From Streptomyces broussonetiae (GTDB taxonomy: Bacteria > Actinomycetota > Actinomycetes > Streptomycetales > Streptomycetaceae), in NCBI RefSeq assembly GCF_009796285.1, contig NZ_CP047020.1:1674001-1738000 (forward strand): 64,000 nucleotides of DNA, given 5' to 3'. The position numbers were made by a program, and so were the translations under genes. The notes under the pieces were generated by a model. It was given only the letters and a program-made list of their open reading frames with translations, did no database searches and had not been told where the DNA came from. Shown here one piece after another: positions 12,101 to 52,462 of the stretch. The number at the start of each line of letters is the position of its first letter. Positions within the stretch are counted from its first letter, which is position 1.

Positions 12101-12163
12101 TCCCCCAGGTGGGCAGCAAGTGCGGCGCACCGACCCGCTCACGGCACCGGGGATACCTACCGT
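12101..12163 (+). promoter_or_regulatory. mftA promoter: activator box plus -10
   Basis: tcccccaggtgggc at 12101-12114, 43 bp, then -10 taccgt at 12158-12163. The start codon of mftA is ~50 bp further. It belongs to the shared promoter class described in the findings and gives co-regulation of mycofactocin synthesis with the catabolic genes. Confidence 0.65.
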
Positions 12164-12213
12164 CACCCTGCGCCGCGACACCGGCCGCGCCGTGGACAAC
12201 GAAGGGAACCTCC

Positions 12214-12333
12214 ATGACCGACAACTCACAGACCTCGACCGCTGACCGTCTCCCCGCCGAGGACGACCAACTGATCGAGGAGGACCTGCTTGTCGAGGAC
12301 GTGTCGATCGACGGCATGTGCGGCGTGTACTGA
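12214..12333 (+). CDS. mftA: Mycofactocin precursor peptide MftA
   Basis: 39-residue peptide starting at ATG 12214 after GAAGGGAACC. The acidic leader (DDQLIEEDLLVEDVS) ends in the invariant core IDGMCGVY. The terminal Val-Tyr is the part converted by MftC into the redox cofactor core (established for the family), with MftB binding the leader. First gene of a tight mftA-B-C-D-E run, 12 bp before mftB. The C-terminal tail makes the call close to certain despite the small size. Confidence 0.97.
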   Translation: MTDNSQTSTADRLPAEDDQLIEEDLLVEDVSIDGMCGVY

Positions 12334-12345
12334 GGCGGGGACACC

Positions 12346-12687
12346 ATGCCCACGCACAGGAACGGGTCCGAGCGGTTCGACCTGGAGGCGGCCTGGGCCG
12401 TGCACCCCCAGGTCGCCGTTCGTCCGGAGCCCTTCGGGGCGCTGCTCTACCACTTCGGCACCCGGCAACTGTCCTTCCTCAAGGACCGCCGGCTGCTCAC
12501 CGTCGTACAGGAACTGGCCCACCGCCCGAGTGCGGCGGAAGCCTGCCGGGTGGCAGGCGTCGACCCCGCCGAGTCGGGGCGCTACCGCGACGCGCTGGCG
12601 CAGCTTGCGAAGTCCCGGATGATCACCGAGCGCACCGGTCCGCCGAGCCGCGGTGACGCTCATCTGCAAGGAGAGGACGCGCGATGA
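12346..12687 (+). CDS. mftB: Mycofactocin peptide chaperone MftB
   Basis: 113-residue RiPP recognition element protein that binds the MftA leader and delivers it to MftC. It contains the expected AVHPQVAVRPEPFGALLYHF and LSFLKDRRLLTVVQEL segments forming the winged-helix RRE fold. Usual size for the family. The stop TGA overlaps the ATG of mftC (ATGA), so the two are translationally coupled. Confidence 0.93.
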   Translation: MPTHRNGSERFDLEAAWAVHPQVAVRPEPFGALLYHFGTRQLSFLKDRRLLTVVQELAHRPSAAEACRVAGVDPAESGRYRDALAQLAKSRMITERTGPPSRGDAHLQGEDAR

Positions 12688-13898
12688 CCGTGCCTTCCGT
12701 AGCACCGCCGAGCCCGGCCCGGACGGGCCGCCTCGTGGACCATTTTCAGCACGGCCTCGAAGCGCCGATCTGTCTGACCTGGGAGCTCACCTACGCCTGC
12801 AACCTGGCCTGCGTGCACTGCCTGTCCAGCTCCGGTCGGCGCGACCCGCGCGAGCTGACCACCGACGAGTGCAAGATGGTCATCGACGAGCTGGAGCGCA
12901 TGCAGGTCTTCTATGTCAACATCGGCGGCGGCGAGCCGACCGTGCGCCCGGACTTCTGGGAACTGGTCGACTACGCCACCGCCCACCAGGTGGGCGTCAA
13001 GTTCTCCACCAACGGCGTCAGGATCACCCCGGACGCCGCGCGGCGGCTGGCTGCCAGTGACTATGTGGACGTCCAGTTGTCCCTGGACGGGGCGACGGCC
13101 GAGGTCAACGACGCCGTACGGGGCGAGGGTTCGTACGCGACGGTGCTGCAGGCCATGGAGAACCTTGCCGCGGCGGGCTTCGCCGGGTTCAAGATCTCGG
13201 TCGTGGCCACCCGCCACAACATCGGGCAACTGGACGCGTTCAAGGCACTCGCCGACCGGTACGGGGCACAGTTGCGGCTGACGCGGCTGCGGCCCTCCGG
13301 CCGGGGCGCCGACGTGTGGGACGAACTGCACCCCGCAGCAGCGCAGCAACGGCAGCTCTACGACTGGTTGGTCGAGCACGGCGACGAGGTGCTCACCGGG
13401 GACTCGTTCTTCCATCTCTCCGCCTACGGCGAGGCGTTGCCCGGGCTGAACCTGTGCGGCGCCGGGCGGGTGGTGTGCCTGATCGACCCGGTCGGTGAGG
13501 TGTACGCCTGCCCGTTCGCCATCCACGACGCCTTCCGCGCCGGAAACGTCCGCGACGAGGGCGGGTTCACCCGGGTATGGCGCTCCTCGTCGCTCTTCCA
13601 GGAGCTGCGGCAGCCTCAGACGGGTGGCGCCTGCACGAAGTGTTCCGCCTTCGACGCCTGCCGTGGTGGGTGCATGGCCGCCAAGTTCTTCACAGGACTA
13701 CCGCTCGACGGCCCCGATCCGGAATGCGTCCAGGGACACGCGGAGGCGGCGCTGGCCGGCGACCGGTCGTCCGCTCCCCGGCCCAGCGAGGACCACTCCC
13801 ACCGGGGGCCGGTGCGCGGGCAGCCCGTCCTTCTCGGCCTGCCGGTTCGGCGGGAGAGCCGGCCCACGCGCATGTGCGACGAAAGTCCTCTGGCCTGA
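12684..13898 (+). CDS. mftC: Mycofactocin radical SAM maturase MftC
   Basis: 404-residue radical SAM/SPASM enzyme. The [4Fe-4S]-SAM motif is CNLACVHC (Cys39, Cys43, Cys46), followed by the GGGEPTVRP segment. The C-terminal SPASM region carries the further cysteines, including those around GEVYACPF and CTKCSAFDACRGGCMA. It performs oxidative decarboxylation of the MftA C-terminal Tyr and then the Val-Tyr crosslink (established for the family). It overlaps mftB by 4 bp and precedes mftD by 37 bp. The last ~45 residues are Pro/Arg-rich and extend beyond the conserved domain. Confidence 0.96.
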   Translation: MTVPSVAPPSPARTGRLVDHFQHGLEAPICLTWELTYACNLACVHCLSSSGRRDPRELTTDECKMVIDELERMQVFYVNIGGGEPTVRPDFWELVDYATAHQVGVKFSTNGVRITPDAARRLAASDYVDVQLSLDGATAEVNDAVRGEGSYATVLQAMENLAAAGFAGFKISVVATRHNIGQLDAFKALADRYGAQLRLTRLRPSGRGADVWDELHPAAAQQRQLYDWLVEHGDEVLTGDSFFHLSAYGEALPGLNLCGAGRVVCLIDPVGEVYACPFAIHDAFRAGNVRDEGGFTRVWRSSSLFQELRQPQTGGACTKCSAFDACRGGCMAAKFFTGLPLDGPDPECVQGHAEAALAGDRSSAPRPSEDHSHRGPVRGQPVLLGLPVRRESRPTRMCDESPLA

Positions 13899-13935
13899 CC
13901 GAAAGGCCGCTCGGTCCACGAAAGAAAGGGGCGTC

Positions 13936-15827: not shown

Positions 15828-15853
15828 GCAGGCGTTCCGCCTGTCCGGACTTG

Positions 15854-15896
15854 AGCGCAGGCGCTGCCACACAGCCGGTGGGTGAACGCCTGCGCT
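15854..15896. terminator. Hairpin between convergent mftE and LuxR gene
   Basis: Perfect 10-bp inverted repeat agcgcaggcg / cgcctgcgct with a 23-nt loop, located between the mftE stop and the stop of the minus-strand regulator. It probably serves both strands. Confidence 0.55.
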
Positions 15897-15908
15897 GCGA
15901 CTCGAAAC

Positions 15909-16571
15909 TCAGCCGACGAGTCCGAGCTCCTGAGCGCGGCTGGCCGCCTGGGCCCGGTTCCGCACCCCCAGCTTCCGGTACACCGTGGTCGTGTGCTGTT
16001 TCACCGTATGCCGGGACAGATTCAGCACAGCTGCCACTTCCGGGTTACTCAACCCCAGCACCAGATGCTGCAGGACGTCCAGTTCACGCTTCGAAAGCCG
16101 CGCCGCGGCGGGTGCCTCATCCTTCGGGAACACCCGCGCGCCCTCCGCGACACGCTTCACCGCCGCCACGATCGCCGCAGTCGGCATCTGCTTCGACAAG
16201 GACGCCACCGCGCCGTGCGCCGACGCCAGCGCCGCCGACACCCGCCCCTCTCCGGACAGCAGAACAACCTTGACGTGCGGCATCCGGTCCCGAAGGTCCC
16301 GGCACAGGTCCAGCCCCGACCGGCCTCCCAACGACGTACTCACCAACACCAGCTGCGGATGATGACGCCGCGCCACCTGCCAGGCGGCCTCCTGCGAATC
16401 CGCCGCCAGACACGACGCCACCCACGGCTGGCTCAGCAACACCGCACGCAACCCCGCCAGCACCAGCTCGTGCTCCTCCGCCACCAGCACCCGCTGCATC
16501 TGACATCGGTCCTCCAGCACCGGGCGAACCCGACCCGTGGGAGCAACCCGCTCGGCGAGGACAAGTGTCAT
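15909..16571 (-). CDS. LuxR/NarL-type regulator with degenerate receiver domain
   Basis: 220 residues. ATG 16571 was chosen because GGAGG lies 7 nt upstream. Residues ~27-145 form a CheY-like receiver, but the phospho-acceptor Asp is replaced: LVLVSTSLGG has Ser78 where the Asp is expected, and the acidic pair is EE (VAEEHE). The conserved Lys (SLSKQM) remains. The C-terminal NarL/LuxR HTH (LSKRELDVLQHLVLGLSNPE, then TVKQHTTTVYRKLGVRNRAQ) is intact. Such proteins act without phosphorylation (inference). A close paralogue is at 35381. No partner kinase is adjacent. It is a candidate activator for the box-containing promoters of the island. Confidence 0.88.
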   Translation of the reverse strand: MTLVLAERVAPTGRVRPVLEDRCQMQRVLVAEEHELVLAGLRAVLLSQPWVASCLAADSQEAAWQVARRHHPQLVLVSTSLGGRSGLDLCRDLRDRMPHVKVVLLSGEGRVSAALASAHGAVASLSKQMPTAAIVAAVKRVAEGARVFPKDEAPAAARLSKRELDVLQHLVLGLSNPEVAAVLNLSRHTVKQHTTTVYRKLGVRNRAQAASRAQELGLVG

Positions 16572-16786
16572 GACGACACCTCCGACTACTCCTAGAACAT
16601 GCAAGAACGGACCGGCCGGCCAACCGCGGCAGGAGGGCTCGCCAGGCGCATTGACCGGAGAGGCTGAAGAAATTTCACGGATTTCCCGATCCTCCGACAC
16701 GTCCGGCTCTCCCCGTCGTGACCTGCGGTTTCACCGGCGCGATCTGACCTCACAGCTTGACCACCGACCGGCGGACAGACGCCCGG

Positions 16787-16895: not shown

Positions 16896-19202
16896 ATGCC
16901 TACTCCGAACGCCGTGCCGGCGGAACTCACCAGCTTCGTGGGGCGGCGAAAGGATGTCGCCGCGCTCCGGCAGCTCTTCTCCACGACCCGGCTGGTGACG
17001 CTGACCGGCATCGGCGGGGTCGGCAAGACGCGGCTCGCTCTCCGCGTCGCCGGAGAGATGCAGCGAGCCTTCCCGGACGGTGTCTGTCTGGTGGAACTGG
17101 CGTCGTTGAAAGACCCGGCGCTGCTCCCCCACAGCGTGGTCGACGCTCTCGGGATCAAGGAGCAGTCCCCCCGCTCACCCATGACCGTGCTGCGTGATCA
17201 TCTGGGGCAGCGGCGCATGCTGCTGGTCCTGGACAACTGTGAGCACCTGGTGGACGCGGCCGCGGGCCTGGCAGACCAGGTGCTGCGTGCGGCGCCCGAG
17301 GTGCGGATCCTGGCCACCAGCAGGCAGGCGCTCAGAATCGCCGGGGAGCACATCTACCCCGTCCCACCGCTGCCGACTCCCCCTCCTGATGAGTCCGTCG
17401 AGCCCGGCACGGCGACCCAGTACCCATCGGTCACTCTGTTCGCCGACCGTTCGGCGGCCGTCGTTCCCGGCTTCTCGATCACGCCCGACAACGAAGCGGC
17501 GGTCGTCCGCCTCTGCCGGCGCCTGGAAGGGATCCCGCTGGCCATCGAACTGGCCTCGGTGCGGTTGCGGGTGCTCACCGTCCATGATCTCGCGAGCCGC
17601 TTGGACGACCGGTTCCAGCTCTTGCGGGAGGGCACCCGCAACCTGCCGGAACGGCATCAGACCCTTCAGGCGCTCATCGACTGGAGCTATGACCTGTGCA
17701 CCCCGAACGAGCAGAGGCTGTGGGCGCGGGCGTCCGTCTTCGTCGGTGGGTTCAGCACCGACGCGCTCGAGGCGGTGTGCACCGATGAGGCGCTCCCCCG
17801 GCATGCGGTTCTCGACACCGTCGCCGGCCTCGTCGACAAGTCGATCTTCATTCGCGAGGAGCAGGGAGAGTACGTCCGCTTCCGCATGCTGGAAACCATC
17901 CGTGCGTACGGCCAGGCCCGGCTCTCGGAGTCGGGCCTGGAACCGGCCCTCCGCCGGCGGCACCGCGACCGGTACCGGCAACTCATGGAGGTGGCGGGGG
18001 ACGAGTGGAGCGGCCCGCGGCAGCGGGAGTGGGCGAGCAGGCTTCAGTTGGAGCTCCCGAACCTGCGGCACGCACTGGAATACTGCCTGTCCCAGCCCGG
18101 TGAGGCGCGTACCGGACTGCGCATGGCGGCGGCGCCCTGGCTATGGCTGGCGATGGGGTACCCCACCGAGGCCAGGCTGTGGCTGGGCCGAGCGTTGGCG
18201 CTCGACGCGGAGCCCAGCCGCGAACGGGCCTGGGCGCTTGCCACCGTGGCGTACATCGCCGCATGCCAGGGAGACGAGGCTGCGGCAGCGGAGTCGGCCG
18301 AGGACGCCCGAAAGGTCGCCGTCCACCTGAACGACCCCGCCGCGCTCGCCTATGCCACGCACGTGCGCGGACTGAGCAAGTTTCTCAGCACGGACCTGTC
18401 CGGCGCGATCCCCCTGTTCAACGAGGCCCTCGAGCAGTACGCCGAGACCAAAACACCCGTCCACTATCCGAACAACCTCCGGACGGAGTTGGCAGCGGCC
18501 CTCATCCTCCTGGGCGAACTCGACAAAGCCGCGGAGATCATCGAGGAGTTGTTCCGGCGCTGCACAGCGGCCGGCGATCAGTGGGTGCTGTCATGGGTGC
18601 TGTGGGGGCGCGGATTCCTGCGCTTGATTCACGGCGAGCTCGACGCGGCGGAAGCCGACTTGTGCGAGGCGCTCAGGATCAAGAGGTTCTTCCACGACAC
18701 CCTTGGGATGGCGCTCGCACTCGACGTACTCGCCTGGACCACGGCGGCGAAGGGCAACGCCGAGCGAGCCGCCACGTTGTTCGGCGGGGCGAACCCCCTG
18801 TGGCAGACCCTCGGAGCCCCGCTGTTCGGCTGGACGCTCCTGCTCGCACAGCGAGCCAAGTTCGAGACGATGGCGCGGGACAAGATGGGGGACGCCCAGT
18901 TCGACGCGGCTCTCGAACGTGGCAGTGCCCTGACCACCGAGGAAACGCTCGCCCTCGCCCTGCGAGAGCGCACACAGCCCGCAAGCGATGCGCCACGTCC
19001 TGCTTCGACGCTGACCCGGCGTGAACGAGAGGTGGCCGAACTGGTGGCGCAGGGCCTGTCCAACAAGGACATCGCGGCACAGCTGGTCATTTCGCTGCGG
19101 ACCGCGGAAGGGCATGTCGAGAAGATCCTCACCAAGCTCGGCTTCAACACGCGTACCCAGATCGCGAGCTGGGTCGTGCAGAGACAGTCCGAGCGGACGT
19201 GA
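16896..19202 (+). CDS. STAND ATPase/LuxR transcriptional regulator
   Basis: 768 residues from ATG 16896 (an earlier in-frame codon at 16842 lacks a binding site). N-terminal NB-ARC-type NTPase with Walker A GIGGVGKT, Walker B MLLVLDNCEHL and the GIPLAIELAS motif. A winged-helix region (TLQALIDWSYDLCTPNEQRL) and ~400 residues of TPR-like helices follow. It ends in a LuxR HTH (LTRREREVAELVAQGLSNKD, then RTAEGHVEKILTKLGF). Such signal-transduction ATPases sense ligands or partner proteins and activate transcription. It sits among regulators beside the mft locus. It is a plausible reader of the CAGGTA boxes (inference). Confidence 0.9.
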   Translation: MPTPNAVPAELTSFVGRRKDVAALRQLFSTTRLVTLTGIGGVGKTRLALRVAGEMQRAFPDGVCLVELASLKDPALLPHSVVDALGIKEQSPRSPMTVLRDHLGQRRMLLVLDNCEHLVDAAAGLADQVLRAAPEVRILATSRQALRIAGEHIYPVPPLPTPPPDESVEPGTATQYPSVTLFADRSAAVVPGFSITPDNEAAVVRLCRRLEGIPLAIELASVRLRVLTVHDLASRLDDRFQLLREGTRNLPERHQTLQALIDWSYDLCTPNEQRLWARASVFVGGFSTDALEAVCTDEALPRHAVLDTVAGLVDKSIFIREEQGEYVRFRMLETIRAYGQARLSESGLEPALRRRHRDRYRQLMEVAGDEWSGPRQREWASRLQLELPNLRHALEYCLSQPGEARTGLRMAAAPWLWLAMGYPTEARLWLGRALALDAEPSRERAWALATVAYIAACQGDEAAAAESAEDARKVAVHLNDPAALAYATHVRGLSKFLSTDLSGAIPLFNEALEQYAETKTPVHYPNNLRTELAAALILLGELDKAAEIIEELFRRCTAAGDQWVLSWVLWGRGFLRLIHGELDAAEADLCEALRIKRFFHDTLGMALALDVLAWTTAAKGNAERAATLFGGANPLWQTLGAPLFGWTLLLAQRAKFETMARDKMGDAQFDAALERGSALTTEETLALALRERTQPASDAPRPASTLTRREREVAELVAQGLSNKDIAAQLVISLRTAEGHVEKILTKLGFNTRTQIASWVVQRQSERT

Positions 19203-19330: not shown

Positions 19331-19807
19331 ATGATCATGTACGTCACGCCCCCCCATGACAGTGACCCTGGCGCCATGGCGCCTTCCGGGATCGCAGGCG
19401 CACGCCCGTCCCTCGGACGCGAAGCCCGCCAGTGGGACCTGCCGCACGCCCCGCAGGCCGCGGGCATCGCGCGCCACCTGGCCCTCGACACGCTGAGGGG
19501 CTGGGGAGTCCGGGAAGACCAAGCCCACCAGGTCGTTCTCGCTGTCTCCGAACTGGTCACCAACGCCGTCGAGCATGCCCTGCCCCCGGTCGCCCTGCAG
19601 CTGGTACCGCCCAACGAGCACCAAACGATCCACGTCGCGGTCACGGACGGTGGCCCGGCGAACGACCGCGGTGCGCGAACCGCCGACTGCGAACCCGACG
19701 AGCACGGGCGCGGAAGCGCCATCATCGGCTTTCTCGCCTCCGCCCGCGGTACGCGCATGTGCGGCAGAAGCGCCACCCACTGGGCGGACCTGCCCCTCAC
19801 CGCCTAG
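19331..19807 (+). CDS. RsbW-like histidine-kinase-fold ATPase (anti-sigma factor family)
   Basis: 158 residues with a single HATPase_c domain: N-box AVSELVTNAVEHA and an IHVAVTDGGP segment followed by a GRGSAIIGFLA-type G-box. ATG 19331 follows CGGAG. Small stand-alone ATPases of this kind in Streptomyces act as anti-sigma or serine kinases in partner-switching. No anti-anti-sigma gene is adjacent, although a truncated PP2C phosphatase lies at 6840-8733. The target is unknown. Confidence 0.85.
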   Translation: MIMYVTPPHDSDPGAMAPSGIAGARPSLGREARQWDLPHAPQAAGIARHLALDTLRGWGVREDQAHQVVLAVSELVTNAVEHALPPVALQLVPPNEHQTIHVAVTDGGPANDRGARTADCEPDEHGRGSAIIGFLASARGTRMCGRSATHWADLPLTA

Positions 19808-19822: not shown

Positions 19823-19885
19823 TCCCCCACCTGGGCGGGTTTCGGCCAGCCGCACCATGGGGTGGCCTGAAACTCGCCGTACGTT
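19823..19885 (+). promoter_or_regulatory. MFS transporter promoter: activator box plus -10
   Basis: tcccccacctgggc at 19823-19836, 43 bp, -10 tacgtt at 19880-19885. ATG of the transporter is at 19946. Confidence 0.65.
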
Positions 19886-21503: not shown

Positions 21504-21565
21504 CCCCCCACTCGGGCAAGGTCTTCGCCCGGCCGCACCCAACAGCCCCATATGCCACCTACGTT
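21504..21565 (+). promoter_or_regulatory. Thioesterase promoter: activator box plus -10
   Basis: ccccccactcgggc at 21504-21517, 42 bp, -10 tacgtt at 21560-21565. The gene starts at 21592, so the leader is only about 20 nt. Confidence 0.6.
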
Positions 21566-22088: not shown

Positions 22089-22149
22089 TCCCCCAGCCGG
22101 GCAAGGTTCCGAGCGCCCTCGCTCATGTCATCAGCTCCCGTCGTACGTT
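22089..22149 (+). promoter_or_regulatory. Thiolase operon promoter: activator box plus -10
   Basis: tcccccagccgggc at 22089-22102, 41 bp, -10 tacgtt at 22144-22149. Predicted start of transcription is near 22156, just before the palindrome at 22161. Confidence 0.65.
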
Positions 22150-24758: not shown

Positions 24759-25204
24759 AGGTCTTCCGGGGCTTCGAAGAACTGCGGAACGCCGTCGGCA
24801 CCCACCTCGGGTACTCGGACTGGCACACCGTCACCCAGCAGCAGATCGACACCTTCGCCGACGCCACCGGCGACCACCAGTGGATCCACGTGGACGTGGA
24901 GAAGGCGGCGGCCGGACCCTTCGCCGGCACCATCGCGCACGGCTATCTGACGCTGTCGCTGGTGCCGATGCTGGTCTGGCAGGTCTACCGGGTCGAGGGG
25001 GTGTCGATGGGCGTCAACTACGGCGCGAACAAGGTCCGCTTCCCGTCTCCCGTGCCGGTCGACTCCAAGGTGCGCGCCGGCGTCGAGCTCCTGTCGGTGG
25101 AACCTGGCGGCGGTGGGTACCGCGTCACGACCCGGGTCACCATCGAGCGCCAGGGCGCGGGCAAGCCCGCCTGCGTGGCCGAGACGGTGAGCGTGGTGGC
25201 CTGA
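24755..25204 (+). CDS. MaoC-family enoyl-CoA hydratase
   Basis: 149-residue single hotdog domain with the hydratase motif FADATGDHQWIHVD (catalytic Asp and His) and GTIAHGYLTLSL. It would hydrate trans-2-enoyl-CoA to (R)-3-hydroxyacyl-CoA, between the acyl-CoA dehydrogenase and the SDR. GTG 24755 overlaps the SDR stop and its own stop overlaps the next ATG, both signs of coupled translation. Confidence 0.92.
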   Translation: MKVFRGFEELRNAVGTHLGYSDWHTVTQQQIDTFADATGDHQWIHVDVEKAAAGPFAGTIAHGYLTLSLVPMLVWQVYRVEGVSMGVNYGANKVRFPSPVPVDSKVRAGVELLSVEPGGGGYRVTTRVTIERQGAGKPACVAETVSVVA

Positions 25205-26238
25205 TGCCGACGACACAGCACAGCCTGCCGGGCCTGAATCTGGTCCGGCTCGGCCCGTGGTTGACCGAGCAGGTGGCGGGGGCGGGGCAGAACCTCACCG
25301 CCCGGCTGCTCGCCGGCGGCAGGTCCAATCTCACCTACGAGGTCACGGACGGGGTCTCGACGTGGATCGTCCGCCGGCCTCCGCTGGGCCACGTCCTCGC
25401 GACCGCCCACGACATGGCCCGCGAGTACCGGGTGATGTCGGCCCTGCAGGACACCGCGGTGCCGGTCCCCAGGACCTACGCCCTGTGCTCCGACGACGGG
25501 GTGCTGGGCGCCCCGTTCTACGTGATGGAGCGGGTCGCCGGAACGCCGTACCGGAACGCCGTCGAGCTGGAACGGCTCGGCCCGGAGCGCACCCGGGTGA
25601 TCTCGGCAGGGCTGGTCGACACCCTGGCCATGCTGCACGCAGTCGACCCCGTCGCGGTCGGGCTGGACGGCTTCGGCCGCCCGGAGGGGTTCCTCCCCCG
25701 TCAAGTCCGTCGCTGGAAGGCGCAGTTGGACGCCTCGTACTGTCGCGACCTGCCCGCCGCGGACGAGCTGTACGACCGGCTCGCCGCCGACGTGCCCCCA
25801 CGGTCCGCACCCGGCATCGTGCACGGCGACTACCGGCTCGACAACGTGCTGACGGACGACCAGGACCGGCCTGCCGCGGTCATCGACTGGGAGATGGCCA
25901 CCCTGGGCGATCCGCTGACCGATCTGGCGTTGCTGGTGCTCTACCAACGGGTGGGCACGCTGCTCGGCGGGAGCGCGGTGGCCCCGGACGCCGCGTCGGC
26001 GCCGGGGTTCCTCGCCGAGAGCGAGATCGTCGAGCGGTACGCCGCGCGCAGCGAGCGTGATCTGTCCCGTTTCGGGTTCTACCTCGCACTGGCGGCGTTC
26101 AAGCTGGCCGCGGTCGCCGAGGGCATCCACTACCGCCATCTGCGCGGCCAGACCGTCGGCTCCGGCTTCGAGCACGTCGGCGCGGCGGTGCAGCCCGTGC
26201 TCGACACCGGGCTCGGCGCACTGAAGGAGTACCGCTGA
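25204..26238 (+). CDS. Aminoglycoside-phosphotransferase-fold protein (ACAD10/11 N-domain-like kinase)
   Basis: 344 residues from ATG 25204. Kinase-like fold with GGRSNLTYEV, the catalytic loop GIVHGDYRLDNVL and the metal-binding DWEMATLGDPLTD. In vertebrate ACAD10/11 an equivalent domain is fused to an acyl-CoA dehydrogenase and phosphorylates 4-hydroxyacyl-CoA so that it can be dehydrated (established for that family). Here the kinase gene directly overlaps an acyl-CoA dehydrogenase gene (TGATG), so the pair may handle hydroxyacyl-CoAs in the same way. Antibiotic resistance is unlikely given the operon. Confidence 0.88.
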   Translation: MPTTQHSLPGLNLVRLGPWLTEQVAGAGQNLTARLLAGGRSNLTYEVTDGVSTWIVRRPPLGHVLATAHDMAREYRVMSALQDTAVPVPRTYALCSDDGVLGAPFYVMERVAGTPYRNAVELERLGPERTRVISAGLVDTLAMLHAVDPVAVGLDGFGRPEGFLPRQVRRWKAQLDASYCRDLPAADELYDRLAADVPPRSAPGIVHGDYRLDNVLTDDQDRPAAVIDWEMATLGDPLTDLALLVLYQRVGTLLGGSAVAPDAASAPGFLAESEIVERYAARSERDLSRFGFYLALAAFKLAAVAEGIHYRHLRGQTVGSGFEHVGAAVQPVLDTGLGALKEYR

Positions 26239-32258: not shown

Positions 32259-32320
32259 AGCATGCAAGCAGGAGGGCGAGACAGCCCGGGTGCGGGCCCA
32301 TGACCTGCCCAGTTGGGTGA
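32259..32320 (-). promoter_or_regulatory. SDR promoter: activator box plus -10 (leaderless)
   Basis: Minus strand tcacccaactgggc at 32320-32307, 42 bp, -10 catgct at 32264-32259, then 6 bp to ATG 32252. Confidence 0.6.
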
Positions 32321-32349: not shown

Positions 32350-32411
32350 TCCCCCGGCCGGGCATCGTTTCCGGGTCCGTGACCGCGCGGGCACGCCGCG
32401 CGAGGCAATGT
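32350..32411 (+). promoter_or_regulatory. Orphan plus-strand copy of the activator-type promoter
   Basis: tcccccggccgggc at 32350-32363, 42 bp, -10-like caatgt at 32406-32411. No plus-strand gene follows; the adjacent gene (32479-33636) is on the minus strand. Either its gene was lost or it drives antisense RNA that meets the hairpin at 32425. Confidence 0.4.
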
Positions 32412-33776: not shown

Positions 33777-33838
33777 AGCCAAGCGTCACTCCCCAGGCGC
33801 GCCGATCCTCGCCGCCCGATCCGCACCCGGTTGGGGGA
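33777..33838 (-). promoter_or_regulatory. Acyl-CoA dehydrogenase promoter: activator box plus -10
   Basis: Minus strand tcccccaaccgggt at 33838-33825, 42 bp, -10-like ttggct at 33782-33777. It diverges from the box at 33907. Confidence 0.55.
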
Positions 33839-33906: not shown

Positions 33907-33969
33907 TCCCCCAAGTGGGCGGTGTTCCCGGCCGAAGCGGTCGCGGCCGTCCCGCCCGCTGCTTACTTC
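33907..33969 (+). promoter_or_regulatory. Alcohol dehydrogenase promoter: activator box plus -10
   Basis: tcccccaagtgggc at 33907-33920, 43 bp, -10-like tacttc at 33964-33969. ATG is at 34062. Confidence 0.6.
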
Positions 33970-35380: not shown

Positions 35381-36055
35381 ATGGGTGAAGTTCTCCCGCA
35401 GATCCGCCCACGGTGTGACGTCAGCGCTGTGCTTGTCGGACCCGCCCCCGAGGACCGATGTCGGCTGCAGCGGGTCCTCTGCGTGGACGAGAACGAGCTG
35501 GTGCAGGCCGGATTGCGCGCGATTCTGTCGGATGAGGCATGGGTGGCGTCGTGCCTGGTGGCGGCCTCGGCCAAGATGGCGTGGCATGTGGCCCAGCGGC
35601 ATCATCCGCAACTGGTCCTCGTGAGTGCCTCGCTCGGTGGCAAGTCGGGGCTGGAGCTGTGCCGGACGTTCAAGGAGCACATGTCGCACGTCCGGGTTGT
35701 GATGATGTCGGGCGAGGGGCGCCTGTCCGCATCCATGGCTCTCCAGCACGGAGCGGTTGCCTCCCTTTCGAAGCACATGCCGCGAGCGATCATCGCGGCC
35801 GCGCTGCGGCGCGTTGCCGAGGGGGCCCGGGTCTTCCCGATCGACGTGAAGCCGTCGGCTGTTCAGTTGTCCCCGCGCGAGCTGGACATCCTGCAGCACG
35901 TGGCCGCAGGGCTCAGCAATCCCGAGGTCGCGGCGTCGTTGAACCTCTCCCGGCACACCGTCAAGCAGCACACGAGCGCTGTCTACCGCAAGCTCGGAGT
36001 GCGCAACCGGGCCCAGGCGGCCAGCCGTGCCCAGGAACTCGGGCTCCTCGTCTGA
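35381..36055 (+). CDS. LuxR/NarL-type regulator with degenerate receiver domain, paralogue 2
   Basis: 224 residues; ATG 35381 has a strong AGGAGG upstream. Same architecture as 15909-16571 and highly similar throughout: receiver with Ser82 in place of the phospho-acceptor Asp (LVLVSASLGG), acidic pair DE in CVDENE, conserved Lys in SLSKHM. Intact NarL HTH LSPRELDILQHVAAGLSNPE with TVKQHTSAVYRKLGVRNRAQ. The near-identical recognition helices imply both proteins bind the same sites. Candidate activator of the TCCCCCR promoters (inference). Confidence 0.88.
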   Translation: MGEVLPQIRPRCDVSAVLVGPAPEDRCRLQRVLCVDENELVQAGLRAILSDEAWVASCLVAASAKMAWHVAQRHHPQLVLVSASLGGKSGLELCRTFKEHMSHVRVVMMSGEGRLSASMALQHGAVASLSKHMPRAIIAAALRRVAEGARVFPIDVKPSAVQLSPRELDILQHVAAGLSNPEVAASLNLSRHTVKQHTSAVYRKLGVRNRAQAASRAQELGLLV

Positions 36056-36344: not shown

Positions 36345-36406
36345 TCCCCCGACTAGGGGGTCCTTGCGAGTACCGGCGCCCCGTGCCGCGCCGGGTCGCC
36401 CAAGGT
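36345..36406 (+). promoter_or_regulatory. Aldehyde dehydrogenase promoter: activator box variant plus -10
   Basis: tcccccgactaggg at 36345-36358, 42 bp, -10 caaggt at 36401-36406. It predicts a ~30-nt leader to GTG 36445, which supports that start. Confidence 0.5.
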
Positions 36407-39371: not shown

Positions 39372-39433
39372 ACGCTAGGACGCCAGGGACGGGCCACGCA
39401 GCGGCGTGAGGCGATCTGCGCCCGCCTGGGGGA
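39372..39433 (-). promoter_or_regulatory. P450-1 promoter: activator box plus -10
   Basis: Minus strand tcccccaggcgggc at 39433-39420, 42 bp, -10 tagcgt at 39377-39372. The box sits between the TetR stop and the P450 start. Confidence 0.65.
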
Positions 39434-42043: not shown

Positions 42044-42105
42044 AGGCTGGAGCCGTTCGTCGTCGGCCGCCGGGCCGAGCCCCCGAAGAGTGCCCAACCG
42101 GGGGG
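42044..42105 (-). promoter_or_regulatory. Ferredoxin/reductase promoter: activator box plus -10
   Basis: Minus strand ccccccggttgggc at 42105-42092, 42 bp, -10-like cagcct at 42049-42044. Leader to ATG 41994 is about 43 nt. Confidence 0.5.
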
Positions 42106-43716: not shown

Positions 43717-43777
43717 ATCGTGCGCGCCGGTCGGCGTCGACGGCTCGTGCACCGCGGCAAGGCGCCCGGTCGGGGGA
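43717..43777 (-). promoter_or_regulatory. Amine oxidase promoter: activator box plus -10 (leaderless)
   Basis: Minus strand tcccccgaccgggc at 43777-43764, 41 bp, -10 cacgat at 43722-43717, then 6 bp to ATG. Confidence 0.65.
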
Positions 43778-43798: not shown

Positions 43799-43860
43799 TC
43801 CCCCAGCCGGGTGCCGCTCGGCAGGCAGCCCGGCCGCCCGGGGGCGTGGGGCGGTTTGCT
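43799..43860 (+). promoter_or_regulatory. Acyl-CoA synthetase promoter: activator box plus -10
   Basis: tcccccagccgggt at 43799-43812, 42 bp, -10-like tttgct at 43855-43860. It diverges from the amine oxidase box 22 bp away. Confidence 0.55.
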
Positions 43861-43966: not shown

Positions 43967-45529
43967 ATGGGTGACGCCACCGTTTTCGCCGTGCTGAAGG
44001 AGCAGGCCGAGCAAGCACCGGACGCCCCCGTCCTCCTGATCGACGGCAAGGAGTGCTCGCGGGCCGAGCTGTTCGAGTCGGTCCGCGCCCTCGCGGCCGG
44101 CCTGCGGGCGCTCGGTCTCGACCGCGGTGACCGGGGCCTGATCGTCTCGGACAACAGGCTGGAGACCGTGGTCGCATGGCTGGGAGTCGACTCGGCCCGG
44201 ATGATCGACGTCCCGATCAACCCGGAGGCCCGCGGCGCGTTCCTCGAGTACCTCGTCAGCGACTGCGGCCCGCGGGTGATGATCGGGCTCCCGGAGTACC
44301 TGCGTGCGGTGGCCGAGGTCGTTCCCGAGCATCCCGAGTTCGCCGTACTGATCGACCCCGACGGCGGCGACCTGCCGTTCGGGGCGAGCACCCGGCACCT
44401 CACCTTCGACGAGGTCATCGAGTTGGGCCGCGACGGCACGGTGGAGCCGCCGCTCGAGAGCGACGTCGCAACGATGATCTACACCTCCGGCACAACCGGA
44501 CCTTCCAAGGGAGTGCTGCTGCCTCATGCTTACCAGGTCACCTGGGCCCGCCGCGGCTCGTCCGCCCTCGGCATGAAGCCGGGGCAGACCGTGTACACGC
44601 CCGAGCCGCTGTTCCACTCAGACGCCCGGTCGTACGTTCTCGGCGCCCTCCTCACCGGCGGCCGGGTGGCCCTCGGCAAACGATTCAGCGTGAGCCGGTT
44701 CTGGGACGAGGTGCGCGCCGCCGACGCATCGTGCTTCGGTTACCTCGGCACCATGCTGTCGATGCTGTACGCCGCCAGGCCCAGCGATGCCGATCGCGAC
44801 CACCCGGCGGTGATCGGCTCCGGCGGCGGTGTGCCCGCAGCGCTCCAGAGGGACTTCGAGGAGCGCTACGGCGTCAAGCTCATCGAGATGTACGGCATGA
44901 CCGAGGCGCTCTGCATCACGATGAACACGCCGGAGCGAACCCGGCCCGGCTCGGTGGGCGTGCCCACACCGGAGCTCGAGGTGCAGCTGGTCGACGCGGA
45001 GGACAAGCCGGTACCGGTCGGGGAGATCGGTGAGCTCATCGTGCGACCCCGGTCGCCGCACATCATGATGGCCGGCTACTGGAACAAGCCGGAGGCGACC
45101 GTCGCAGCCTGGCGCAACCTGTGGTTCCACACCGGCGACCGGATGCGGGCTGACGAGGACGGCTTCCTCTACTACGTCGGACGGCTCAAGGACTCGATCC
45201 GCCGGAGGGGCGAGAACGTGTCGGCGTGGGAGGTCGAGGGCGCGGCCAACAAGCACGACGACGTGCTTGTCGCTGCCGCCATCGGCGTGCCGTCGGAGCT
45301 CGGCGAGGAGGACGTCGCGATCCTCGTCGTCCCCCGGGAGGGGCGCACGATCGATCCGCCCGCGCTGCGCGACTTCCTGGCCGCCGACCTCCCCAAGCAC
45401 GCCGTTCCCCGCTTCATCGAGGTGGTCGACGACCTCCCGCGGACACCCACCGAGCGGGTCAACAAGGACAAGGTGCGCTCGCGCGGCATCACCGAAGCGG
45501 CGTGGGACGGCGAGGTTCCCCGGGTGTAG
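43967..45529 (+). CDS. AMP-forming acyl-CoA synthetase
   Basis: 520 residues from ATG 43967 (GAGGAGG upstream). Adenylation motifs are MIYTSGTTGPSKGVLLPH (P-loop), EMYGMTEALCITMN, WFHTGDRM, the hinge region RLKDSIRRRGENVSAWEVE, and the catalytic Lys in RVNKDKVRSRGI. It activates a carboxylic acid as acyl-AMP, then acyl-CoA, feeding the acyl-CoA dehydrogenases. The build resembles CaiC-like/ATP-dependent ligases for small or carnitine-type acids, but the specificity cannot be read. Confidence 0.94.
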   Translation: MGDATVFAVLKEQAEQAPDAPVLLIDGKECSRAELFESVRALAAGLRALGLDRGDRGLIVSDNRLETVVAWLGVDSARMIDVPINPEARGAFLEYLVSDCGPRVMIGLPEYLRAVAEVVPEHPEFAVLIDPDGGDLPFGASTRHLTFDEVIELGRDGTVEPPLESDVATMIYTSGTTGPSKGVLLPHAYQVTWARRGSSALGMKPGQTVYTPEPLFHSDARSYVLGALLTGGRVALGKRFSVSRFWDEVRAADASCFGYLGTMLSMLYAARPSDADRDHPAVIGSGGGVPAALQRDFEERYGVKLIEMYGMTEALCITMNTPERTRPGSVGVPTPELEVQLVDAEDKPVPVGEIGELIVRPRSPHIMMAGYWNKPEATVAAWRNLWFHTGDRMRADEDGFLYYVGRLKDSIRRRGENVSAWEVEGAANKHDDVLVAAAIGVPSELGEEDVAILVVPREGRTIDPPALRDFLAADLPKHAVPRFIEVVDDLPRTPTERVNKDKVRSRGITEAAWDGEVPRV

Positions 45530-45563: not shown

Positions 45564-45624
45564 TCCCCCAACTGGGCCGATCCCGACACCGACCGCGAGG
45601 GGGCCGCGTCGCACGACCTACGTT
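45564..45624 (+). promoter_or_regulatory. P450-2 operon promoter: activator box plus -10
   Basis: tcccccaactgggc at 45564-45577, 41 bp, -10 tacgtt at 45619-45624. P450-2 starts at 45665. Confidence 0.65.
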
Positions 45625-45664: not shown

Positions 45665-46912
45665 ATGAGTTCGATCAACAACCCCGGTTTCACGGTCGCG
45701 GACATGGCGTTGTGGGTCGACGGCCCGCCGCACGAGGTCTTCGCCGAGATGCGTGGCAAGTGCCCGGTGCACCACTCGGCCGGCATCGTCGGCATGCCCG
45801 AGGCGCCCGGGTTCTGGTCGATCACGAAGGCCGACGACATCGCGAAGATCAGCCGCGACTGGAAGACGTTCTCCTCCCACCGTGAGGGGGCCGTCGACCT
45901 GACCTGGGAGGGCATGCCCGAGGACCTCAAGGAACTGTCCAAGATGGACATGATCAACCTGGACCCGCCGCGGCACGACCGGCTCAAGCAGCTCTTCCTC
46001 GCCGGCTTCACCCAGGAGCGCATCGCGGCCGAGGAGGCCAAGGTCCGTGAGGCCGTCACGAACGTGCTCGACCGCCTCGACGACCAGGAGACCTGCGACC
46101 TAGTCAATGACGTCGCCAAGCCCATCGTCGCCCGCGTCATCCACGGATTCATGGGCATCCCTGCGGAGGACGATGCCCGTTGGATCCACAACATCAGCCG
46201 CTACATCGCCCTCGACGACCCGTACTTCAACCCCGGCGGCCTCGAGGAGTGGCTCACGGTCTTCATCCCCGACCTGATCGAGCAGTGCGTGGCGCTGATC
46301 GAGGACCGCAAGGCCAATCCCGGCGACGACCTCATCAGCATCCTCGTCAACGCGGAGGTCGAGGGTGACCGGCTCACCGACGACGAGATCGTCGCGGGCA
46401 TGCTGCTGCTCTTCGCCGCCGGCAACGACAGCACCATGGCGACGTACACGAGCGCCATGATCGCGCTGATGCAGAATCCCGACGAGCGTCAGAAGGTCCT
46501 CGACGACCCGTCGCTGGTGCCCAGCGCCGTCGAGGAGGCGCTCCGGATGTTCCCCGCGTTCACGTTGATGCGGCGCACGGCGACGAAGGACACCGAGGTC
46601 GGGGGGCAGACGATCAAGGAGGGCGACCAGGTCGTCCTGTTCTACCCGTCGGCGAACCGCGACGAGGACAAGTACGAGGACCCGGACCGCTTCGACGTCA
46701 CCCGCAACCCCGAGCACCAGGCGTTCGGAGCCGGCGGCCGCCACTTCTGCCTCGGCAACGCGCTGGCCCGCCTCGAGCTGCGGCTGATGGTCGGGGAAAC
46801 GCTCAAACGCTACCCGCAGATGGAGATCGCCGGCGACGCGCCGTTCACCGCGTCGTTCTTCGTCAACCAGCGCCAGACGCTTCCGGTCCGACTGGGCCCC
46901 CGCGCGAACTGA
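45665..46912 (+). CDS. Cytochrome P450 monooxygenase, paralogue 2
   Basis: 415 residues from ATG 45665 (AGGAGG upstream). Heme Cys362 in FGAGGRHFCLG. K-helix EEALRMFPAFTLMRR. I-helix AAGNDSTMATY with the same unusual Asp-Ser-Thr as paralogue 1. The long N-terminal match (ADMALWVDGPPHEVFAEMRG versus LADFDLWKDGPPHGIFSDLR) shows recent common ancestry. Cotranscribed with an imine-reductase-like gene 34 bp downstream, which hints that it acts on a nitrogen-containing substrate (inference). Confidence 0.95.
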   Translation: MSSINNPGFTVADMALWVDGPPHEVFAEMRGKCPVHHSAGIVGMPEAPGFWSITKADDIAKISRDWKTFSSHREGAVDLTWEGMPEDLKELSKMDMINLDPPRHDRLKQLFLAGFTQERIAAEEAKVREAVTNVLDRLDDQETCDLVNDVAKPIVARVIHGFMGIPAEDDARWIHNISRYIALDDPYFNPGGLEEWLTVFIPDLIEQCVALIEDRKANPGDDLISILVNAEVEGDRLTDDEIVAGMLLLFAAGNDSTMATYTSAMIALMQNPDERQKVLDDPSLVPSAVEEALRMFPAFTLMRRTATKDTEVGGQTIKEGDQVVLFYPSANRDEDKYEDPDRFDVTRNPEHQAFGAGGRHFCLGNALARLELRLMVGETLKRYPQMEIAGDAPFTASFFVNQRQTLPVRLGPRAN

Positions 46913-46946
46913 CCTGACCCACCACCGCACAGGAAGTGGAGAACCC

Positions 46947-47840: not shown

Positions 47841-47873
47841 CCCTGCGCGCCGTCGAAGCGCCGGACCCCGGAT

Positions 47874-48164: not shown

Positions 48165-48168
48165 CCAA

Positions 48169-48230
48169 TCCCCCAGGTGGGCACACTGCCGGGCCTCGGG
48201 ACACCCGCATCGGTCCGCTGCGAGCACGAT
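48169..48230 (+). promoter_or_regulatory. Saccharopine-dehydrogenase-like gene 1 promoter (leaderless)
   Basis: tcccccaggtgggc at 48169-48182 (identical to the mftA box), 42 bp, -10 cacgat at 48225-48230, 6 bp to ATG 48237. Confidence 0.65.
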
Positions 48231-48236
48231 GCGGCC

Positions 48237-49439
48237 ATGACTTCCTCAACTTCTGAACAGAGCGCGCCGAAGAGGGTGCTCGTGACCGGCGGAGCCGGCG
48301 AGATGGGCGCGTATGCCTGCGGCGTGCTCGCCAAGGCCGACGAGATCGCCAAGGTGGTCGTCGCCGATCGCGATGAGGAGAAAGCGACCAAGCTCGCCGC
48401 CGACCTCGGCCCGAAGGCCACCCCGCTGGCCCTCGACATCTCGGACTCAGAGGCGCTGGCGAGAGCGCTGGCCGACGTCGACATCGTGCTCAACTGCGCG
48501 GGCCCGTTCTACCGCTTCGGTCGCGAGGTCCTCAGCGCCGCCATCGCGGCCGGCACCGACTACCTCGACATCTGCGACGACTGGGAGCCCACCCTGGAGA
48601 TGCTCGAGCTGGACGACGCCGCGCGTGCGGCCGGCGTCACGGCCGTGATCGGCATGGGCGCCAGCCCGGGCACCAGCAACCTGCTCGCCGTCCTGGCGAT
48701 GGACGAGTGCGACGCCGTCGACCGGGTCTACACGTCGTGGCGTGCCTCCGCGGCCCATTTCCCCCGACCCACCGCCGACCAGGAGTTCCCTGAGGCGACC
48801 GCTGCCATCGAGCACTGGGTGCACAACTGCACCGAGCCGATCAAGATCTGGCGCGACGGTGGCCTTGTCGACGCGCACGCCCTCGAGGAGCTGACGCTCG
48901 CCTACCCCGGGTGGGGCGAGGACGCGGTCTGGGTGTGCGGCCACCCCGAGCCGCTCACCCTTCCGAGGATCCGGCCCGAGGTACGGGAGTCGCTCAACGT
49001 GATGAGCGCCCGCCGCGGACTCATGAACGGCATCAGCGGCATCGCCAAGCGCGTCCGCGCCGGAGAGCTGAACGTCCGCCAGGCTTCCGACGAGCTCCTG
49101 CGTCAGCCGAACCTCAGCGGCAAGGCCGCCGGCCGGTCGCCGAGCCTGCCCAGCAACATCTTCGCCATCGCGGAGGGCACCAAGGACGGAACCCGCGTCC
49201 GCGTCGGCGCGCAGGCTCTGGTGCAGCCGGAGGGCAACATGGGCGAGATGACCGGGATCCCGCTGGCCGTGGCGACGCTGATGGCGGCCCGCGGCCAGGT
49301 GAGCAAGCCGGGCGTCCACGGACCCGAGGGCGCCATCGACCCGAAGATCTTCTTCAACGACCTGGCGCAGTTCGCCGACGAGCCGCCCGCGCCCGGCGTC
49401 GCGGTGTACGAGGTCGTCACGGACGTCCTCGACAGCTGA
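48237..49439 (+). CDS. Saccharopine dehydrogenase-like oxidoreductase, paralogue 1
   Basis: 400 residues from ATG 48237. N-terminal NADP fold VLVTGGAGEMGAYACGVLAK with VVADRDEEKATKLAADLG, then CAGPFYRFGREVLSAAIAAG and DYLDICDDWEPTLEMLELDD. GMGASPGTSNLLAVLA is typical of this family. The family includes lysine/saccharopine, carboxynorspermidine and other imine-reducing or amine-oxidising enzymes. A paralogue follows at 51067. In this amine-rich cluster it may join or split a C-N bond; the substrate is unknown. No ribosome binding site is visible and a leaderless transcript is predicted. Confidence 0.85.
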   Translation: MTSSTSEQSAPKRVLVTGGAGEMGAYACGVLAKADEIAKVVVADRDEEKATKLAADLGPKATPLALDISDSEALARALADVDIVLNCAGPFYRFGREVLSAAIAAGTDYLDICDDWEPTLEMLELDDAARAAGVTAVIGMGASPGTSNLLAVLAMDECDAVDRVYTSWRASAAHFPRPTADQEFPEATAAIEHWVHNCTEPIKIWRDGGLVDAHALEELTLAYPGWGEDAVWVCGHPEPLTLPRIRPEVRESLNVMSARRGLMNGISGIAKRVRAGELNVRQASDELLRQPNLSGKAAGRSPSLPSNIFAIAEGTKDGTRVRVGAQALVQPEGNMGEMTGIPLAVATLMAARGQVSKPGVHGPEGAIDPKIFFNDLAQFADEPPAPGVAVYEVVTDVLDS

Positions 49440-49631
49440 CGACCCGCCGCGGAGTCGTCGCAACCACACCTGCCTCGCCCAGAAAGTGATCTCAAACATA
49501 GGTCACCTGGGTGGGATCAGGCAGCAGAACCACGCCGGTGGCCACGAGCTGCACCACCGTGACCAGCACTCGCGCGAACGTGCTCGCGCGCACGACAGAA
49601 CTCAGCGGCATGAATCGGAGCGGGTGGCCTC

Positions 49632-50939: not shown

Positions 50940-50946
50940 CGTCGGC

Positions 50947-51008
50947 TCCCCCGGCCGGGCACCGCTTGCAGTCGTTCGGCCCGCGTGCGTCGACGCATGC
51001 AGGAACGT
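50947..51008 (+). promoter_or_regulatory. Saccharopine-dehydrogenase-like gene 2 promoter
   Basis: tcccccggccgggc at 50947-50960, 42 bp, -10-like gaacgt at 51003-51008. ATG is at 51067. Confidence 0.5.
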
Positions 51009-51066
51009 GCCAGGCATCGAAGAGGCCGTGAACCACATGTTGATCCGAAGAGGAGCCTGACCACCC

Positions 51067-52254
51067 ATGTCTGACACCAAGCCGCCCCTGGGCACTGTGA
51101 TCATTGTCGGCGGCGCCGGCGCGATGGGGCGCTGGGCCGTCCGAGGGATCGCCGAACTCGGCACGGCCAAGAAGGTGCTGATCGGCGACATCGACGTGTC
51201 ACGCGCCCAGCAGCTCGCCGACGAGGTCGGCGGTCCATGCGTCCCCGTGCGCCTCGACGCCACGGACCCGGCAGCGCTGCGGCAGGCGTTCGTCGAGTGC
51301 GAGGTCGTCCTCAACACCATGGGCCCGTTCTCGAAGTTCGCCAGGCCCATAGTGGAGGCCGCCATCGACTGCGGCTGCGACTACCTGGACATCGACGACG
51401 ATTGGGAGTCCACGGTCGAGGCGTTCGAGTTCGACGCCCAGGCTCGTGACAAGGGCCTCCGCGTCGTGAAGGGCATCGGCGGCAGCCCGGGCATCTCCAA
51501 CTTGGCGGCAGCACTGGTCGCCCGGCGGCTCGACAAGGTCACCGAGATCTTCACCGGATGGTCGATGCGTGGCGCGGTGCTGGAGGACGAGCCGGCGTAC
51601 CCCTCGACCGGTGGTGCCGGGGCGGCCGTCGAGCACTGGCTGATCCAGATCAGCGGCTCGATCCGCGCCTACCGCGACGGCGCCGAGAAGGACATCGAAC
51701 CCCTCACTCCCGTCGAGCTCCTGTACCCAGGCAAAGGGCAGGTCCGGGCCTATACCGTCGGGCACCCCGAGGCGATCACCCTGCCGCGCTGCTTCCCGAC
51801 CGTCGTCAGCTCGACCAACCTCACGTCCGGTCCGGCGTGGGTCTTCGACCACGCGCGCAGGGTCGCGGCCGACTACGACGCCGGGCGGGTGACCCTTGCC
51901 GAGGGCGCCGGCCGCCTCGAGGACATGCCCGCTCCCCCGGCCGACGCGCCGCGGACTCGCGACCGGTTCGCCCAGGTCTGGGCCATGGCGCGCGGCGAGC
52001 GCGACGGGGAGCCGCTCGCGATCTCGGTCGAGCCGGCGTCGATGCCGCCGGGCAAGATGGGCGGCGGCACCGGCGCGGCGCTGGCGGTGGGACTCGAGCT
52101 GTTGCGCCAGGGCCGCATTACCGAGCCCGGCGTGCACGCCCCGGAGGGCGTAATCGACCCCCACGACTTCTTCTCGGTGTTCCTGGGGTTCGTCGAGCCG
52201 GCCGTCGCGTCGGTGGAGGATCTCCTGATCATCCACGAAGGGCCGGTCGGCTGA
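51067..52254 (+). CDS. Saccharopine dehydrogenase-like oxidoreductase, paralogue 2
   Basis: 395 residues from ATG 51067, collinear with 48237-49439. NADP fold VIIVGGAGAMGRWAVRGIAE with LIGDIDVSRAQQLADEVGG, then TMGPFSKFARPIVEAAIDCG, DYLDIDDDWESTVEAFEFDA and GIGGSPGISNLAAALVA. Similarity to paralogue 1 is clear in the first ~200 residues and at the end (EPGVHAPEGVIDPHDFF versus KPGVHGPEGAIDPKIFF). The pair may act as two subunits or on two stereo- or regio-isomeric intermediates. It ends at a strong hairpin. Confidence 0.85.
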   Translation: MSDTKPPLGTVIIVGGAGAMGRWAVRGIAELGTAKKVLIGDIDVSRAQQLADEVGGPCVPVRLDATDPAALRQAFVECEVVLNTMGPFSKFARPIVEAAIDCGCDYLDIDDDWESTVEAFEFDAQARDKGLRVVKGIGGSPGISNLAAALVARRLDKVTEIFTGWSMRGAVLEDEPAYPSTGGAGAAVEHWLIQISGSIRAYRDGAEKDIEPLTPVELLYPGKGQVRAYTVGHPEAITLPRCFPTVVSSTNLTSGPAWVFDHARRVAADYDAGRVTLAEGAGRLEDMPAPPADAPRTRDRFAQVWAMARGERDGEPLAISVEPASMPPGKMGGGTGAALAVGLELLRQGRITEPGVHAPEGVIDPHDFFSVFLGFVEPAVASVEDLLIIHEGPVG

Positions 52255-52300
52255 TCGACGACCGCGGTGACGCCAGCGCGCGCCGATGTCACCTCGCCGC

Positions 52301-52331
52301 AGAGGCCCACCGCCACCGGCGGTGGGCCTCT
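52301..52331. terminator. Strong hairpin after paralogue 2
   Basis: 14-bp stem agaggcccaccgcc / ggcggtgggcctct with loop acc, 46 bp after the stop. Confidence 0.8.
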
Positions 52332-52400
52332 CCCACGTCGGTCACAGTGGCGAGGAGCGCGGGGACAGCGAGCAGGGCCGCGGCTCCCGAGCCGGGCTGA

Positions 52401-52462
52401 TCCCCCAACCGGGCGCGATGACCCTCGGGAGACCGGCGCGGCACCGTGCGGTTGGCGAACAT
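52401..52462 (+). promoter_or_regulatory. RidA-like gene promoter: activator box plus -10 (leaderless)
   Basis: tcccccaaccgggc at 52401-52414, 42 bp, -10-like gaacat at 52457-52462, 6 bp to ATG 52469. Confidence 0.55.

Follow-up and report, generated by a model that had tools for sequence, protein, structure and literature searches.

The DNA analysed here is a 64,000-nucleotide stretch of the Streptomyces broussonetiae genome (NCBI RefSeq assembly GCF_009796285.1, contig NZ_CP047020.1, positions 1,674,001 to 1,738,000 of the forward strand), hereafter the window, which contains a catabolic island of ~40 kb. Mycofactocin genes (mftA-E and mftF-mftG) lie there among genes for two cytochromes P450 (P450-1 and P450-2), a ferredoxin, an NDMA-dependent alcohol dehydrogenase, an aldehyde dehydrogenase (ALDH), several short-chain dehydrogenases/reductases (SDRs), acyl-CoA dehydrogenases (ACADs), an acyl-CoA synthetase, a thiolase, a thioesterase, an amine oxidase, two saccharopine-dehydrogenase-like (SaccDH-like) proteins and RidA. 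The alcohol dehydrogenase, P450s, acyl-CoA enzymes, amine oxidase and RidA suggest the breakdown of a nitrogen-containing compound. Three GerE (LuxR-type) regulators are encoded in the island, namely the NarL-type response regulators (RRs) RR-1 (15909-16700, reverse strand) and RR-2 (35381-36055, forward strand, behind the alcohol dehydrogenase gene), and a LuxR-type ATPase regulator with AAA, NB-ARC, TPR and GerE domains (LuxR-ATPase; 16914-19202, forward strand). An earlier note on this DNA had described one 14-bp box, TCCCCCRnnYGGGC, followed at 41-43 bp by a -10-like hexamer, before sixteen genes or operons, and had placed the whole catabolic set under one activator. We consider it likely, with good confidence, that most operons of the island do form one regulon under a common activator-dependent promoter, and a single activator probably switches the catabolic pathway on.

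All sixteen sites of the earlier note were recovered, ten with the exact box, five with one mismatch and one with two. On the forward strand, exact boxes precede mftA (12214-12333; promoter 12101-12163, TACCGT at 43 bp), the MFS transporter gene (19823-19885, TACGTT at 43), the thiolase gene (22089-22149, TACGTT at 41), the alcohol dehydrogenase gene at 34062 (33907-33969, TACTTC at 43), P450-2 at 45665 (45564-45624, TACGTT at 41), SaccDH-like-1 (48169-48230, CACGAT at 42, putatively leaderless ATG at 48237), SaccDH-like-2 at 51067 (50947-51008, weak GAACGT at 42) and RidA (52401-52462, weak GAACAT at 42, putatively leaderless ATG at 52469). One-mismatch boxes on the same strand stand before the genes for the thioesterase (4HBT_2; 21504-21565, TACGTT at 42) and the acyl-CoA synthetase at 43967 (43799-43860, weak TTTGCT at 42), and the weakest site, with two mismatches, before ALDH at 36445 (36345-36406, CAAGGT at 42). 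On the reverse strand the box is exact before P450-1 at 39299 (39372-39433, TAGCGT at 42) and the amine oxidase gene (43717-43777, CACGAT at 41, putatively leaderless ATG at 43710), and has one mismatch before SDR-b (32259-32320, box TCACCCAACTGGGC, CATGCT at 42, putatively leaderless ATG at 32252), ACAD-1 (33777-33838, weak TTGGCT at 42) and the ferredoxin gene (42044-42105, CAGCCT at 42). The hexamer TACGTT occurs four times (19823, 21504, 22089 and 45564) rather than the three previously counted; the five weak -10 elements are as the note described them. That the strand of the box follows the genes also held, since each of the 16 listed boxes points at its named gene, which starts 53-188 bp further on. 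One additional exact box, missing from the earlier list, lies at 32350-32411 on the forward strand with CAATGT at 42 bp and no gene ahead. In the genome G070, which we take as Streptacidiphilus pinicola, the site that neighbours the SDR-b promoter, at position 29954, precedes ALDH, and the 32350 site is perhaps a promoter left over after ALDH moved.

The groupings of genes into boxed operons are deduced from gene order. On this basis the thiolase promoter would also serve two SDRs, an APH-like protein and ACAD-2, the alcohol dehydrogenase promoter RR-2, and the ferredoxin promoter the ferredoxin reductase, while a large ACAD, a 6PGD-like protein and DAO follow SDR-b, P450-2 and SaccDH-like-1, respectively. 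The statement that the whole catabolic set obeys one activator was too broad: most operons are boxed, but among the top 17 sites of the window none lies before mftF-mftG, RR-1, the LuxR-ATPase (16914), the HATPase-like gene (19331), the SSF symporter gene (27509) or the TetR gene (39438). The presence of unboxed genes indicates a regulon that is wide but incomplete.

The exact box is found 11 times in the island (all within 12101-52414), the remainder of the 9.74-Mb genome having 20. The outside density predicts 0.083 exact boxes for 40.4 kb (Poisson P about 3e-20). No exact box occurs in 400 kb of control DNA, made up of 20 stretches from along the same genome, and the reversed pattern, taken as a control, has 16 matches genome-wide. 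Matches with up to two mismatches are no commoner than chance (84 in the window compared with 83.4 in shuffles), and for this reason the box evidence rests on sites with no or one mismatch. A chance origin of the latter sites was considered and rejected, given their enrichment, their spacing in the window and in relatives, the ATG register and the matrix ranking. A genome-wide regulon was not supported either; YANNNT stands at 41-43 bp in two of the 19 exact sites examined outside the island, the twentieth having no locus.

The distance between the box and the -10 element is sharply defined. Within 0-110 bp after the 16 listed boxes there are six TANNNT hexamers, all of them at 41-43 bp, and the looser YANNNT is found at 41-43 bp in 11 of the 16, other windows of 3 bp holding at most two except where they overlap the peak (binomial P about 1e-15, with the rate taken from the other windows). 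The same peak appears in relatives, where YANNNT lies at 41-43 bp in 27 of 65 boxes (18 at 41, seven at 42 and two at 43 bp; at most three at every other position; P about 3e-28), compared with two of 26 one-mismatch boxes of the control DNA. These 65 boxes have at most one mismatch and come from nine loci of eight genomes (G070, L099-L101 and L103-L107), picked regardless of spacing; the loci of RB17 (L097 and L102), a near relative, were left out of this set and of the matrix training set as too near the window, and show YANNNT at 41-43 bp in five of 13 boxes.

A start codon stands in register with many of the boxes. Counting only ATGs that open a frame of at least 60 codons, an ATG lies 53-55 bp after the box in four of 16 window boxes, 18 of 65 relatives' boxes and one of 26 control boxes, and along the relatives' boxes any other three neighbouring positions hold six ATGs at most. 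For this comparison, as for those of the pooled sites and of the relatives, the 16 window boxes are those with at most one mismatch, with 32350 included and 36345 excluded. In the four window cases (32252, 43710, 48237 and 52469) six bases separate the -10 element from the ATG, a register which suggests leaderless targets. The starts of SaccDH-like-1 and RidA are probably the ATGs at 48237 and 52469, not those picked by the gene caller.

To rank the sites, box and -10 element were combined into a composite matrix trained on 36 sites from nine loci, with the window and RB17 excluded. The training set includes orthologous promoters, those of G070 among them, and is therefore independent of the letters of the window, not of its ancestry. 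With 32350 added to the listed 16, the top 17 sites of the window scan are exactly these 17, the eighteenth site scoring 11.0. Twelve of the 17 outscore every match in the 400 kb of control DNA; 50947, 42105, 33838 and 33907 are each equalled or exceeded by one control match, and 36345 by four.

Orthologous promoters in relatives (SDR-b, SaccDH-like-1, RidA and others) have kept the box, the -10 element and the ATG while the spacer changed. Even unusual versions persist: the box variant TCACCC of SDR-b is also present in RB17, S. boluensis and G070, and among the weak -10 elements, S. boluensis and RB17 both have that of the alcohol dehydrogenase unaltered (TACTTC) and that of ACAD-1 with one change (TTTGCT). 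G070 has most of the island genes, including those for mycofactocin, in a different order, and 12 of its 20 boxes with at most one mismatch have a -10 element or an ATG in register. Counted in the RR genomes other than Actinomadura and S. spongiae, the share of a genome's exact boxes that lies on the RR-bearing contig is 15 of 30 in A. circi, eight of 25 in A. anabasis, seven of 13 in S. boluensis, six of 36 in S. pinicola (G070/G298), three of nine in Aeromicrobium and zero of four in the uncultured bin; in RB17 a 54-kb stretch has 10 of 33. The SaccDH-like protein is matched only in its own genome among 394 searched.

A class I activator acts from a position near -61. If transcription starts at the A of the register ATG, the box is centred at -59.5 to -61.5, and at no position of the -35 region do the 36 pooled sites carry more than 0.35 bits; an operator at a fixed distance near -61 and an absent or poor -35 element are both features of this class. 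The idea of a common activator working from about -61 is the best reading of the data, with box, spacing and ATG register recurring in nine loci of eight other genomes, and box and -10 element retained in orthologous promoters with diverged spacers. The pooled sites extend the box to (A)TCCCCCR-NN-YGGGCR, and we propose this sequence as an operator centred at about -60.5, working with a TAnnnT-type -10 element and no visible -35. DevR/NarL-family operators are 7-2-7 inverted repeats, a layout which the box fits in its inner part (CCCR-NN-YGGG is symmetric in the 36 pooled sites) while its outer positions are asymmetric; the DevR operator itself differs from the box. The island's own RR-1/RR-2 family would bind this operator, most likely as a dimer. 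Acting from -60.5 in the class I manner, it would bring in RNA polymerase, which activators of this class contact through the alpha C-terminal domain. Mycofactocin synthesis (mftA-E), the P450 system, the dehydrogenases and the acyl-CoA and imine-handling enzymes would be induced jointly, and several of the targets would be leaderless, with the start codon placed where transcription should begin.

The earlier note had guessed that the activator is the NarL-type pair, and judged from sequence this is probably so. RR-1 and RR-2 are paralogues, about 70% identical, both with Pfam Response_reg and GerE domains and both with a Ser at the position of the phospho-acceptor Asp. The Ser aligns opposite the Asp of ChrA and DevR, and in 13 RR copies the position holds Ser (12) or Glu (one) and never Asp. 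Besides RR-1 and RR-2, these copies comprise 11 of the 13 loci found by a scan of 84,980 species genomes (11 orthologues, in nine genomes), L108 and L109 being dropped as non-orthologues; the presence of the peptide SRHTVKQH in all 13 is partly by construction, as this peptide was a search pattern. With the Asp missing, RR-1 and RR-2 probably respond to a ligand, to their own level or to another modification. A sensor kinase was not found among the island proteins scanned (not every gene was), apart from a small HATPase_c_2 protein at 19331. The family is rare: at E 1e-20, 37 of 297 family genomes give a match, of which two have an orthologue and the remaining 35 show 33-42% identity. One of 394 class genomes has an orthologue (E 1e-35), and all 1128 plasmid records fall below 60% identity (33.5-35.9% among the 20 listed). 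Two RR paralogues per genome are also seen in RB17 and A. circi.

Mycofactocin loci provide a comparison with and without these regulators. Fifteen mftC genes pass the cut-off in the 297 family genomes, 13 of them in genomes lacking an RR orthologue; none of these 13 loci has an exact box, whereas both RR-bearing mftC loci have one. The 13 loci hold seven one-mismatch boxes, none of which we could assign to mftA, correctly oriented and with a -10 element at 41-43 bp. The comparison takes mftA to be no more than 1.5 kb upstream of mftC. The RR-bearing loci L104, L106 and L107 (S. spongiae, Aeromicrobium and an uncultured bacterium) have boxes in register in four of eight, two of eight and two of four cases, and in leave-one-locus-out scans five, five and one of their sites, respectively, exceed the best control, while two loci without an RR orthologue have no such site. 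The promoter is thus kept without a close LuxR-ATPase match (see below) and RR-less mftC loci lack an exact box, which points to the RR family as the binder.

Several observations weigh against this assignment or against the regulon itself. The L103 locus (Actinomadura) carries an RR and no exact box in 17 kb, its best site scoring 17.1 compared with 17.8 for the best control, and L107, from an uncultured bin, also lacks an exact box, none of the four exact boxes of that genome lying on its contig. Several of the above-control sites in L104 and L106 are out of register, their score coming from the box, and the mftA promoter of G070 has a box with a poor -10 element. In S. broussonetiae itself four of the 19 exact sites outside the island score 18.7-19.4, above the best control of 17.9, showing that isolated high scores arise from the box alone. 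RR-1 has no box of its own, and the arms of the box are not fully symmetric, unlike the expectation for a homodimer site. Because the loci were collected by RR homology, the statement that an RR implies boxes is tested better than the statement that a box cluster implies an RR. Finally, RR and LuxR-ATPase orthologues co-occur in the same two of 297 family genomes, so the family survey cannot separate the two candidates.

The LuxR-ATPase is in fact the most serious competitor: the box could be bound by this MalT-like sensor activator, the RR pair doing something else. It has a GerE DNA-binding domain and is found with at least 60% identity in six of the nine RR genomes searched, in two of them in several copies (A. 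circi has three copies at this level). The three remaining genomes make this explanation unlikely, as at E 1e-100 G303 matches at no more than 39-44% and neither G304 nor G305 matches at all, and yet the loci from these genomes (L104, L106 and L107) combine boxes in register with sites that outscore the best control. All three assemblies are drafts, G305 being a bin of 2.7 Mb, and the absence of the LuxR-ATPase could partly reflect gaps. A still smaller chance is given to the view that the promoters were copied along with their genes, so that the box records shared ancestry without common regulation. Some island genes are indeed paralogous (the two P450s, the two SaccDH-like genes and several SDRs), but most of the 16 boxes precede unrelated gene families, and across the promoters no alignable sequence beyond the box and the -10 element was apparent by eye. 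From promoter to promoter, and from orthologue to orthologue, the spacer varies whereas the box, the -10 element and their distance do not, as selection would predict, and we regard copying as very improbable.

The box may also be asked to be the site of a developmental regulator, BldM or a BldM-WhiI-like pair. BldM and WhiI are orphan, atypical NarL/FixJ regulators of Streptomyces and, like the proposed activators, are NarL-type proteins thought to be free of phosphorylation control that activate regulons (extract of PMC4125116). The resemblance reaches the DNA: the BldM group I operator TCACcCgnncGgGTGA has the same 16-bp frame, with a CCC-g-nn-c-GGG core (extract of PMC4125116), and the SDR-b box starts with TCACCC. 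The details differ, however, since in the pooled sites (TCCCCCR-nn-YGGGCR) base 3 is C (33 of 36) instead of A, base 14, after GGG, is mostly C (23 of 36) instead of T, and base 16 is not enriched in A. According to the same extract, BldM is developmental and present in all sequenced streptomycetes, and yet the 13 RR-less mftC loci have no exact box, while 15 other genomes of the genus (of which only G009 certainly entered the RR search, and whose box positions were listed in part) hold 5-31 exact boxes apiece, a level close to the background of 20 outside the island here. RR-1 and RR-2 are, by contrast, rare and reside among catabolic genes, and have lost the Asp that BldM keeps in its pocket. 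A role for BldM is accordingly quite improbable, less so than copying but more than the LuxR-ATPase, and binding by the RR-1/RR-2 family is preferred.

Other characterized regulators share single traits with RR-1 and RR-2. DosR/DevR of Mycobacterium has a NarL-type helix-turn-helix whose DNA-contacting Lys182 corresponds to a Lys in the RR family, while its contact residues Lys179 and Asn183 are His and Gln there; DevR also has an Asp where the RR family has Ser, and is phosphorylated by DosS (extract of PMC4082495). Pathway-specific regulators with pseudo-receivers are represented by PapR6 and JadR1, ligand control of PapR6 having been proposed by analogy to JadR1 (extract of PMC12632262); these proteins serve antibiotic pathways (pristinamycin II for PapR6) rather than a catabolic island, and are likened to RR-1 and RR-2 by description, not by sequence. 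Mycofactocin genes have a known regulator in MftR, a TetR-type repressor that responds to long-chain acyl-CoA and acts at the promoter 5' to mftA through the palindrome T-N2-GGCA-N5-TGCC-N2-A (extract of PMC8728441). The box described here also lies 5' to mftA, but it differs from the MftR palindrome, is probably an activator site, and is found before catabolic genes as well.

The proposed activation would add a second route of control over mycofactocin synthesis to the known repressor. A description of an RR-1/RR-2-type regulator family was not found in the literature searched, and the operator and promoter geometry given here are a precise, testable prediction for such a family. Among open-licence papers none was found that joins a mycofactocin gene cluster with a response regulator, or mycofactocin with cytochrome P450 and saccharopine dehydrogenase. 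Recurring before about 16 genes and across several genera, this promoter layout offers a natural series for comparing an activator at about -60.5 on leaderless and leadered genes, and the pseudo-receiver is a handle on the signal and hence on the substrate of the island. More tentatively, the distribution of boxes and regulators could reflect a horizontally moving regulon cassette, in which rare pseudo-receiver NarL regulators read a pathway intermediate, the stereotyped and often leaderless class I promoter stays attached to its genes as islands shuffle between actinobacteria, and mycofactocin biosynthesis is drawn in only in some hosts; we regard this as possible but not the expected outcome. 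A search for mft homologues limited to the flanking DNA of L104-L107 found none.

A few neighbouring genes deserve mention. The small HATPase_c_2 protein (19331-19807, forward strand) is encoded between the LuxR-ATPase and MFS genes and has homologues in the G070 and RB17 islands. Within the thiolase group, the APH-like phosphotransferase (25204-26238, forward strand) lies beside an acyl-CoA dehydrogenase, a pair that recalls the breakdown of 4-hydroxyacids by enzymes of the ACAD10/11 type. Just past the last boxed gene, two transposase genes (Mutator family and IS110 family) at 53462-54700 (reverse strand) and 55023-56075 (forward strand) mark a possible edge of the island.

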